From Syntrophomonadaceae bacterium (GTDB taxonomy: Bacteria; Bacillota; Syntrophomonadia; Syntrophomonadales; Syntrophomonadaceae), in contig JAAYCK010000151.1 in assembly GCA_012729835.1 (NCBI GenBank), forward strand, positions 1 to 42,715: a stretch of DNA of 42,715 nt, given 5' to 3'. Below the pieces are notes generated by a model. It was not told where the DNA came from and searched no databases. It worked only from the letters and a program-made list of their open reading frames with translations. The position numbers and the translations under genes are program-made. Below, piece after piece: positions 25,005 through 28,353 of the stretch; position 1 is the stretch's first letter; every line of letters begins with the position of its first letter.

Positions 25005-25736
25005 TTAGTAGACCATGGTCCCATCCAGGAAAGCCTTACTGCGTTCATTAGACGGGTTGTTAAAAAAGTCTTCTGCATTGGATTTCTCCACCACTTCGCC
25101 CCCTACCAGCAGTATAACTTCATCGGCCATGCGTTTAGCCTGGAAGAGGTTATGAGTGACCATGATGACGCTGGTTCCGAATTGTTGGTGGTGTTTCCGC
25201 ACTATCTCCTCAATGACCTGCACACTATGAGGATCCAGATTGGCTGTTGGCTCGTCCAGCAGGAGTACTTCCGGTCTTAGCACCAGGGCTCTGGCCAGAG
25301 CTACCCGCTGCATCTCACCACCCGACAACTTTGTGGCGGGATAATTGATAAAATCCTGCATACCTACAAAATCGATGGCTTCGCTCACACGCCGTTCTAT
25401 CTCTCTGTGTGGGAGCTTTCTTAACCTCAATCCGTAAGCAACATTGTTATATACGCTGGTGCTAAACATCAGCGGCCGTTGAAAAACCATGCACATCCGC
25501 CGGGCCATGTCATAACTCTTGTGTCCCTGTTTGAGCAGTTGACCATCCACGAACTTAATGTCGCCGGAATCCGGTTCAACCAGCAGGTTCAAGATACGCA
25601 AGAGTGTACTCTTGCCCGCTCCATTGGGTCCTAAAACTGCGTAAATGCGTTCTCGTTCCAGGTATAGCTTGTCAATACTCAATACTGTCCTATCACGGTA
25701 AACCTTGGTCAGATGGGTAATTTCAAATAGATTCAT
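25005..25736 (-). CDS. tupC: Tungstate ABC transporter ATP-binding protein TupC
   Basis: 243-aa ATPase subunit that powers the TupB permease. Walker A GPNGAGKST at 36-44, Q-loop region MVFQRPLMF, signature LSGGEMQRVALARAL, Walker B VLLLDEPTANLD and the VTHN H-loop are all intact. There is no C-terminal TOBE regulatory domain, consistent with the short tup-type ATPases rather than ModC. The start at 25736 follows GAGGT at about 8 nt and lies only 4 nt after the tupB stop, indicating translational coupling. An upstream frame overlapping tupB is rejected. Confidence 0.95.
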   Translation of the reverse strand: MNLFEITHLTKVYRDRTVLSIDKLYLERERIYAVLGPNGAGKSTLLRILNLLVEPDSGDIKFVDGQLLKQGHKSYDMARRMCMVFQRPLMFSTSVYNNVAYGLRLRKLPHREIERRVSEAIDFVGMQDFINYPATKLSGGEMQRVALARALVLRPEVLLLDEPTANLDPHSVQVIEEIVRKHHQQFGTSVIMVTHNLFQAKRMADEVILLVGGEVVEKSNAEDFFNNPSNERSKAFLDGTMVY

Positions 25737-25740
25737 ATTC

Positions 25741-26421
25741 TTATACCTCACCCAGATTAAAATCTTTGGCATTAAGTAAAACAATTGAACTTACAATGAA
25801 GGATAAAATAAGGAGAATGACCCCCAATGCTACACCCATCTCAAAGTTTCCCTGTCTGGTTTCCAGTATGATCGCTGTGGTCAGTACCCTGGTGTAGTGC
25901 CGGATATTACCGCCGACCAGCATGACTGCACCAACCTCGGCAAAGGCTCGGCCGAACCCGGTCATTATACCTGCAATGATTCCCGTCCGGGACTCGGAAA
26001 TGACGGTCCATACCGCTTGCATCCGGGTAGCCCCGAGACTCCTGGCGTGATCGTAAATGATCCCTTCCTTGCTAGCAATGGCTGCAGCGGACAGCCCGGT
26101 GATAATCGGGGTAACCAGCAAACACTGGGCAATGACCATCGCACTGGGTGTGAACAACCACTCGAGTTCTCCTAGTGGCCCGCTGCGTGATAATATAAGA
26201 TATACTACCAAACCTGCCAGCACCGGCGGCAAAGCCATTAGCGTATATACTATCCGCAATAATAGTCCTTTGCCAACAAAATTATTCAAGCCGATCCATG
26301 CCCCCAGAGGAATGCCGATAAGGGCGCTAATAATAGTAGCCGATCCTGAAACCAACAACGACAAGAGGACTATTTCAATTATTTCGGATTGCTGCTGGAT
26401 CAGAAATTGTATAGCGTCCAT
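25741..26421 (-). CDS. tupB: Tungstate ABC transporter permease TupB
   Basis: 226-aa inner-membrane permease with about five hydrophobic helices. The cytoplasmic coupling loop DHARSLGATRMQAVWTVISESRTGI (ABC permease EAA-like, about 126-150) contacts TupC. GIIAGIMTGFGRAFAEVGAVMLVGGNI matches TupB/ModB-type permeases. It is the first gene of the operon tupB-tupC-WtpA-like-tupA. CGGAGG precedes the ATG by 8-9 nt. A structured leader about 220 nt long (26422-26640) lies directly upstream, so metal or cofactor status probably controls the operon. Confidence 0.95.
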   Translation of the reverse strand: MDAIQFLIQQQSEIIEIVLLSLLVSGSATIISALIGIPLGAWIGLNNFVGKGLLLRIVYTLMALPPVLAGLVVYLILSRSGPLGELEWLFTPSAMVIAQCLLVTPIITGLSAAAIASKEGIIYDHARSLGATRMQAVWTVISESRTGIIAGIMTGFGRAFAEVGAVMLVGGNIRHYTRVLTTAIILETRQGNFEMGVALGVILLILSFIVSSIVLLNAKDFNLGEV

Positions 26422-26640
26422 GAAAAACTACCTCCGGTAAAATCAAATATCTCTTGGTGAAATAAAAAAGCCAAACCAAGAACGGCCTGACCACTCGAGA
26501 ACAATCATAGGATTGTTCTGTTTCTCTGCCCTCCTTTCCAAACGGGAGGTAAGAAGGTTTCCCTTCATACCCTATCGGCCGGTGAACCATAGCTAATACT
26601 TTAGATTCAGCGGCTCGGTGAGCGTTTGTTATATTCACTT
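26422..26640 (-). ncRNA. Moco/Tuco-riboswitch-like leader of the tup operon
   Basis: Read on the minus strand. CTCACCGAGCC and GGTTCACCGGCC occur near 26621-26570. A hairpin GAAGG-GAAA-CCTTC with a GNRA tetraloop is at 26553-26566. Then comes a CCTCC/GGAGG hairpin (26530-26549), and finally a 9-bp perfect stem (AGAACAATC / GATTGTTCT, 26498-26519) and a run of six T at 26464-26469. These features and the location fit the published molybdenum/tungsten cofactor RNA family, which sits upstream of Mo/W transport genes. I did not derive a full covariance match. A 7-bp pair TCTTGGT / ACCAAGA flanks the T-run and may be part of the switch. Confidence 0.72.
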
Positions 26641-27422: not shown

Positions 27423-27542
27423 AACATTTAAGGGAAATGAATTAATGGTATCGTAGAAAACCAGATTTGGTACTCCCCAAAAAAGAAGGTTATAAAAAAG
27501 AGATACCATTATGTATTTTACTTAAATGAGAGGTGATACCAA
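27423..27542 (+). promoter_or_regulatory. Self-complementary leader of the 54-aa gene
   Basis: Perfect 10-bp inverted repeat TAATGGTATC (27443-27452) with GATACCATTA (27502-27511). A second copy of GATACCA occurs at 27535-27541, touching the AGGTG ribosome binding site. In addition ATTTGGTA (27465-27472) is perfectly complementary to TACCAAAT (27537-27544), which includes the first bases of the ATG. These alternative pairings could hide or expose the start. No known riboswitch class was recognised. Confidence 0.5.
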
Positions 27543-27707
27543 ATGGCAGAGTACGAGAACAGCTTTAAAAACCAGCCCTTGTATTGCGGCGAATTCTTTG
27601 CGGACAAAGCCGACAAAGACCGCTACCTGCAAGCCCCGGCATGGGTCAAGGTTTGGATGGACGCTCTGGATGCAATTTATGCCAAAACCCTTAGCCCCGC
27701 CGCCTAG
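27543..27707 (+). CDS. 54-aa protein of unknown function
   Basis: 54 aa beginning MAEYENSFKNQPLYCGEFF. It is soluble, with six aromatic residues in the first 20 positions, one cysteine (C15) and three tryptophan/tyrosine-rich stretches (APAWVKVWMDALDAIYA). There is no signal peptide or membrane helix. I do not recognise the family. Coding status is supported by a good promoter, an AGGTG site 7 nt before the ATG, and a strong terminator 24 nt after the stop. It is divergent from the HxlR regulator, the classic arrangement for a target of such regulators. Another reading frame over the same DNA (27526-27729) has no RBS and was rejected. Confidence 0.7.
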   Translation: MAEYENSFKNQPLYCGEFFADKADKDRYLQAPAWVKVWMDALDAIYAKTLSPAA

Positions 27708-27730
27708 TACTGATGACCAGACACTCTAAC

Positions 27731-27767
27731 AACAAAGGACCCATCCCTTTCGGGAGGGTCCTTTGTT
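27731..27767 (+). terminator. Intrinsic terminator of the 54-aa gene
   Basis: 12-bp perfect outer stem AACAAAGGACCC (27731-27742) with GGGTCCTTTGTT (27756-27767), plus a nested TCCC/GGGA pair and TTTC loop. Downstream bases are TACATTTTCT. Confidence 0.88.
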
Positions 27768-27885: not shown

Positions 27886-27915
27886 TTGTCGGGTTCTATA
27901 ATCATTTGTTATAAT
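27886..27915 (+). promoter_or_regulatory. Extended -10 promoter of the selenoprotein candidate
   Basis: TTGTCG (27886-27891), 18-nt spacer and extended -10 TGTTATAAT (TATAAT at 27910-27915). It lies 31 nt upstream of the ATG at 27947, with AGAGGGG as ribosome binding site at about 27932-27938. Confidence 0.75.
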
Positions 27916-27946
27916 AGCTTCAATCTAAACAAGAGGGGATGCTTTG

Positions 27947-28312
27947 ATGGCCAAGTATTATGAATTCTATTGCGTGACCTCCTGAACTACTTGCAAGAAA
28001 GCCAAGGTTTGGCTGGAAGAACAAAAGGTATCGTTCAATTACCATGATCTGCTGAAGGAACCGTTAGATCTGCTGGAATTGAGAAGGCTGGCAGCACAGA
28101 ATGGCTCTACCATTAAGGAACTGGTCAATCCCAAGAGCCAGGCTTATAAAAAATTGCAGCCGGATCTTACCACTATGGATGAGCAGGCGGTTTTCGAACT
28201 CGTTGCCGCCAATCCCCGCATCATGGTTCGTCCCATGCTAAGCGACGGCAAAAAGATGGTGATGGGATTTAAAGAAGATCAGTATAAAAGATTCCTCAAC
28301 CTAAGCGATTAA
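27947..28312 (+). CDS. ArsC/Spx-like thioredoxin-fold selenoprotein (UGA = Sec13)
   Basis: 121 aa if the in-frame TGA at 27983-27985 (codon 13) is read as selenocysteine; otherwise a 12-residue peptide. The frame continues without interruption for 108 codons. With U for TGA the N-terminus reads YEFYCVTSUTTCKKAKVWLEE, matching the ArsC/Spx/YffB family active site (xCxxCKKAK). The TGA sits exactly where the first active-site Cys is usually found, and C16 is the second. Residues about 33-110 (LLKEPLDLLELRRLAAQNGS, NPKSQAYKKL, RIMVRPMLSDGKKMVMGF) match the family's remaining fold, including the conserved R/P of the RP motif. It has its own promoter, RBS and terminator. Role: probably a thiol-redox protein or reductase; arsenate activity is not shown. 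SelA/B/C are not in the window. Confidence 0.85.
28000..28014 (+). promoter_or_regulatory. Bacterial SECIS-like hairpin
   Basis: Begins 14 nt after the TGA. A 6-bp perfect stem, AGCCAA / TTGGCT, has apical bases GGT at 28006-28008, about 21 nt after the TGA. A GGU-containing apical loop at this spacing is the pattern SelB recognises in bacterial SECIS elements. It is encoded inside the reading frame, as required in bacteria. Confidence 0.75.
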
Positions 28313-28326
28313 TATTTCTAGACCTG

Positions 28327-28353
28327 GCAGTTCCTCTACCGAGGGGCTGCTTT
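28327..28353 (+). terminator. Terminator after the selenoprotein candidate
   Basis: Stem GCAGTTCCTC (28327-28336) with GAGGGGCTGC (28341-28350), two wobble pairs, loop TACC, followed by TTT. It lies 14 nt after the stop. Confidence 0.7.

Follow-up and report, generated by a model that had tools for sequence, protein, structure and literature searches.

A predicted selenoprotein of the ArsC/Spx family with a CxxxUxxC active site in a Syntrophomonadaceae bacterium

The window, the whole 42,715-nt stretch of DNA analysed here, very probably encodes a genuine selenoprotein at 27947-28312, in which an in-frame UGA specifies the selenocysteine (Sec) of a thioredoxin-fold active site. The computational evidence comprises the reading frame, the position-specific conservation of the UGA, the sel genes of the genome, selection on a hairpin behind the UGA and the predicted fold of the product.

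The reading frame and conservation of its UGA

The features of the locus are as follows.
27947..28312, plus strand: probable selenoprotein gene, 121-aa ArsC/Spx-family protein with a CxxxUxxC active site (frame, PF03960, TIGR01617, 71 homologues)
27983..27985, plus strand: UGA, proposed to be read as Sec, residue 13, the equivalent of Spx Cys10 (TGA versus TGC/TGT alignment)
28000..28014, plus strand: probable SECIS hairpin with a stem of 6 bp and a GGU loop that occupies nt 21-23 counted from the UGA (bacterial SECIS model and family tests)
27886..27915, plus strand: promoter-like TTGTCG-18 nt-TATAAT with TG before the -10 (consensus scan, at most suggestive)
28326..28351, plus strand: terminator-like hairpin 3' of the gene with a weak T run (fold -18 kcal/mol)

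The initial annotation described a frame broken only by a TGA that falls on the first cysteine of a CxxC motif, and translation bears this out. The product begins MAKYYEFYCVTSUTTCKKAKVWLEEQ, the single in-frame TGA is codon 13 (27983-27985) of an otherwise open frame, and the motif reads FYCVTSUTTCKKAK. An in-frame stop at 27926 sets the gene start at ATG 27947 (or TTG 27944), and the ribosome-binding site AGAGGGG precedes the ATG. Of the three flanking elements proposed earlier, the ribosome-binding site stands and the promoter is at most suggestive; chance alone would give about 1.3 such sites over the region. The terminator is reduced to a hairpin that the terminator scan rejected because its T run is too short. 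Mechanical ORF calling in the region returns only 28079-28312 (77 aa, TTG start), the truncated fragment that had been anticipated. TGA is the ordinary stop for other genes in the window, and therefore no change of genetic code is involved; the identified genes around the locus resemble ordinary chromosomal genes. A small ORF to which no function was assigned (27526-27729, plus strand) lies just 5' of the gene. A terminator-like hairpin (27745-27758) separates the two, which makes it probable that the selenoprotein gene has a transcript of its own. Elsewhere in the window, a molybdenum/tungsten riboswitch (RF01055, 73.7 bits; 26515-26632, minus strand) stands ahead of ABC transporter genes (25005-26421).

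A close homologue is present in 34 of 151 related genomes. All 34 have exactly one in-frame TGA, which occupies the identical codon in the 32 of these loci that were read. The Sec loci fetched (n = 75) correspond to 71 distinct sequences because some genomes were reached twice, and codon 13 is TGA in 71/71 of these clade members. The next-nearest relatives carry TGC or TGT at this codon (31/31 fetched), which supplies the Cys-containing homologues that the first reading called for at position 13. Other stop codons were looked for at the same place, and neither TAA nor TAG occurs there in any homologue compared. The clade is TGA-only in all sequences found, which suggests that Sec is needed there and not optional. 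On either side of the TGA the third codon position varies more than the first two, and the nearest relative is 64% identical over 117 aa. Across 399 genomes of the phylum, profile searching gave 17 matches of at least 125 bits, each with one TGA; the next ones, from about 107 bits downwards, were Cys genes or other TGA families. A named-genome scan added clade members in Syntrophomonadaceae, Syntrophothermus, Pelotomaculum, Desulfotomaculaceae and Dethiobacter, along with one Atribacterota record. Of the 80 loci in an alignment-based contig scan, about 60 belonged to the clade, and a single-sequence contig scan for the window protein returned no matches. In a tree from which the Sec column was omitted, a single branch (support 79, from a short alignment) divides the Sec sequences from the rest.

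Other TGA-containing relatives were seen in these searches. Three separate ArsC-like genes (L049 in G103, L050 in G117 and L053 in G143) have TGA at the same catalytic position in a UxxV motif, YPKUSTVRRAK; they pass TIGR01617, not NF041106, and are possibly another unmodelled Sec-ArsC family without the second motif Cys. A further ArsC-family gene with a TGA (L054 in G132; FCYPGUSTCKKA) is placed on the Cys side of the tree and is a possible independent origin of Sec within the superfamily.

The SECIS hairpin and the selenocysteine machinery

The 6-bp hairpin with a GGT tip that had been noted 14 nt after the TGA is present as AGCCAA-GGT-TTGGCT at 28000-28014. The bacterial SECIS model specifies a loop of 3-9 nt, a stem of 4-16 bp, a spacing of 16-37 nt, a G within the first two loop positions and a minimum free energy (MFE) of at most -7.5 (PMC13188914). 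The window hairpin has a GGU loop, 6 bp and a spacing of 20 nt and falls within the loop, stem, G and spacing limits. The energy limit is reached only by the wider stretch of 45-48 nt after the TGA (-8.0 to -8.3 kcal/mol). The hairpin alone is modest at -5.4 kcal/mol, with p of about 0.05 versus synonymous codons; only the family-level test is decisive.

Synonymous codons were redrawn in 200 sets to separate the hairpin from coding constraint. The best model-conforming hairpin in the 71 Sec sequences averages -6.0 kcal/mol versus a null of -2.3 ± 0.27, and 0/200 sets are as low, a count that is not an independent-sample p-value because the sequences are related. The same test on Cys homologues (n = 30) gave -1.9 versus -2.2, which is no signal. 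The loops are concentrated at one place, with Z = -13.5 at the SECIS position; a smaller excess at one off-target offset 180 nt downstream (Z = -4.6) means that the test is not wholly clean. In plain MFE, the 45 nt that follow the TGA carry only a modest signal (mean z = -0.8), hence the need for a hairpin-specific test with a Cys control. Most relatives have a GUG loop at nt 24-26, and the window sequence and about ten near relatives have the loop at nt 21-23. Within the nt 24-26 class, pair 19-31 alternates between A-U and C-G and pair 18-32 between G-C and A-U, and 0/500 shuffles are as well paired, a count subject to the same limit on independence. The proposed SECIS nature of the hairpin thus gains support from the published model, the family-wide test and covariation. 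The Rfam SECIS_1 model has no match in the window, but it is likewise silent in every control genome and is thus uninformative. The 3-nt shift of the loop between orthologues is a natural experiment on the spacing tolerance of SelB.

The genome from which the window comes contains the sel genes whose presence the initial annotation asked about. A selA (577 bits), a selB (380.6 bits), a tRNA-Sec (selC) with anticodon TCA and a selD are all on contig C186. The selD (C186:53571-54494) has an in-frame TGA near its own start (...VRAAGUAAK...), and SelD is well known to exist as a selenoprotein. SelB and tRNA-Sec models match elongation factors and ordinary tRNAs weakly in all genomes, and only matches over the cut-off were counted. 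SelB by this measure is found in 32/34 gene-bearing versus 88/117 other genomes (p = 0.016), a weak association that reflects how common Sec use is among these relatives. Two genomes (G010 and G052) have the gene and lack SelB over the cut-off, plausibly as draft genomes.

Two readings of the locus dispense with Sec. A lone in-frame stop in a small gene resembles a fresh nonsense mutation, so the gene might be a normal Cys gene that a TGC/TGT to TGA change or a sequencing error has interrupted. This account is almost certainly wrong: the same TGA in 71 distinct homologues from many independent assemblies, never replaced by TAA or TAG, refutes it, and the codons 3' of the TGA are conserved as protein. 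One homologue (L051 in G121) does look truncated, its frame ending early at a TAA, and is possibly a decaying copy, but the break is at a different place. Some read-through of UGA occurs in any bacterium, and near-cognate decoding could in principle insert Trp or Cys at codon 13. Against this stand the redox Cys that homologues have at the position, the presence of sel genes, the selected and covarying hairpin and the normal use of TGA as a stop by other genes in the window, which together make near-cognate decoding highly improbable. Decoding of the UGA as Sec is the reading retained below.

Fold, active site and probable function

Profile searches were run on the window protein read with Cys at position 13. 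It matches ArsC (PF03960) with E = 1.4e-17 and scores 93.1 bits against the Spx/MgsR subfamily model TIGR01617 (cut-off 75.05), which is also matched by 32/32 aligned relatives. The AlphaFold model (pLDDT 93.9) has the order strand-helix-strand-helices-strand-strand-helix, and the best solved Foldseek matches are Spx (3gfk/1z3e, TM 0.85) and then YffB (1rw1). The PF03960 and TIGR01617 scores and the thioredoxin-like fold place the protein in the ArsC/Spx superfamily. C9, U13, C16, K18, N61 and R95 are invariant across the aligned relatives and P96 is near-invariant. The Spx/YffB fold, PF03960 and the CxxC alignment support the earlier proposal of a UxxC thioredoxin-fold redox protein, which named no more specific function.

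Three points are inferred from these data: that Sec is inserted, how the redox cycle runs and which protein is the partner. The hairpin at 28000-28014 would direct SelB and its Sec-tRNA(Sec) to read the UGA at 27983 as Sec, yielding a thioredoxin-fold ArsC/Spx-like protein with the active site C9-xxx-U13-xx-C16. The most likely target of the U13 selenolate is a disulfide, selenenyl-sulfide or oxidised thiol/selenol of the partner, and C16 (or C9) would resolve the mixed intermediate formed by U13. A thiol/selenol-disulfide oxidoreductase is thus the probable activity predicted for the window protein.

Two other functions were considered for the protein. An Spx-type transcription regulator would bind the C-terminal domain of the RNA polymerase alpha subunit and use U-xx-C as its redox switch. 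The score against TIGR01617, the closest solved structures, which are Spx bound to that domain, and the CxxC to UxxC replacement at the switch site are in keeping with such a role. However, three Spx models are missed (91.5/123, 80.5/152 and 57.9/159 bits), the matched Spx chains extend about 15 residues beyond the last aligned position, and the gene is paired with that of an enzyme, the peroxiredoxin PrxU, at 14 loci. Gly52 of Spx is essential for the alpha-CTD contact (PMC3386922); its position is Thr in the window protein and Gly in only 3/32 relatives. This lack of conservation favours a redoxin over an Spx role, and we consider a regulator unlikely. The ArsC Pfam fold and the label 'arsenate reductase' that related selenoproteins bear in the literature suggest a Sec enzyme acting directly on arsenate. 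Such an enzyme is very unlikely here, as the protein scores 37.9 bits against TIGR00014 (cut-off 106), the site is of the CxxC type, E. coli ArsC fits the structure less well (TM 0.67, 15% identity) and no ars genes were recognised among the recurrent neighbours. The protein is most likely a CxxxUxxC oxidoreductase, neither Spx nor arsenate reductase.

Sec-containing ArsC-like proteins were reported in 2005-2008 (PMC1088965, PMC1794560, PMC2398784), so Sec ArsC/Spx-like UxxC proteins are already known and the window protein joins that kind. 'Arsenate reductase 2' (cd03032, UxxC) was predicted as a selenoprotein in the Global Ocean Sampling selenoproteome of 2008 (PMC2398784). It shares the ArsC/Spx-type thioredoxin fold and UxxC, the comparison being by cd03032 label and motif alone. 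It is known there only from marine metagenomic reads, whereas the window clade comes from anaerobic Bacillota genomes, is Sec-only, has an extra Cys at -4 and in some members adjoins PrxU. NF041106 (ArsC_rel_Se_1, UxxC) is also an ArsC-like protein with Sec at the first CxxC position (PMC13188914), but the window protein, with 32.4 bits where the cut-off is 85, is not a member. Spx (1z3e, 3gfk) has the fold, the CxxC position and the TIGR01617 subfamily in common with the window protein, which differs in having Sec instead of Cys10, in the Gly52 equivalent and in missing the Spx-specific models. YffB (PA3664, 1rw1) is a small ArsC-fold protein of the ArsC family (TM 0.77-0.81), but it is a Cys protein with 33% identity, and its model PRK10853 gives 65.2 bits against a cut-off of 121. 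The closest functional parallel, as cited in PMC13188914, is the Sec-glutaredoxin and Sec-MsrA of Clostridium oremlandii ('tandem use of selenocysteine'), in which a Sec redoxin serves a Sec enzyme; the redoxin family and the client are different, and the likeness is an analogy only. The 2006 list for Syntrophomonas wolfei includes nothing ArsC-like. A literature search, with many subscription papers outside its reach, found no report of the Sec-only clade, the PrxU operon or the two SECIS registers. The sole NCBIfam model that the window protein passes is TIGR01617, which is Cys-type; no NCBIfam selenoprotein model covers it, and the clade is therefore likely annotated as fragments or missed. 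The active-site UGA is common to relatives in many anaerobic bacteria, so ordinary gene calling is likely to miss a whole redox-protein family.

Gene neighbourhood and a possible peroxiredoxin partner

The gene directly follows a peroxiredoxin gene with its own in-frame TGA (FYPGDFTFVUPTE) in 14 relatives, and 41-161 nt separate the end of the PrxU gene from the ArsC-type TGA at these 14 loci. One such upstream protein was run against the PrxU model NF040737 and passed with 366 bits (cut-off 270). A likely operon that encodes two selenoproteins suggests a redoxin in the service of the peroxidase, and PrxU is a reasonable, if tentative, candidate for the partner where the genes adjoin. Co-occurrence of PrxU and the gene across all 151 genomes has p = 5e-5. 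Within the taxonomic family of the window genome the figures are 15/27 versus 11/27 (p = 0.41), which is not beyond chance, and a search of the window genome itself gave no PrxU match at E<=1e-20. These two results led us to reject a universal partnership with PrxU. The Sec-only clade occurs mainly in syntrophic and related anaerobic Bacillota. These redoxins might be dedicated PrxU reductants in a two-selenoprotein operon for peroxide removal, with another selenol or thiol client in genomes that lack PrxU, though we regard this broader scheme as somewhat doubtful. The neighbourhood leads to a concrete prediction on peroxide removal by strict anaerobes.

The gene has other recurrent neighbours, which we take to be a radical SAM gene (AmmeMemoRadiSam type) on its upstream side and an MBL-fold gene on its downstream side. 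A conserved structured element of about 100-150 nt lies 5' of the Sec-ArsC locus in 17-18 relatives (for example L079:1685-1834, minus strand) and combines an invariant GCTTTCATATA, a covarying helix and a terminator-like hairpin. It occurs in 29/61 relatives, with one copy each and two in one genome, and its copy in the window genome is at G000:C40:28447-28608 (L185). The element has no Rfam match at the gathering score. In every locus read, a radical SAM gene precedes the element, which is antisense to that gene and is a candidate unannotated small RNA.
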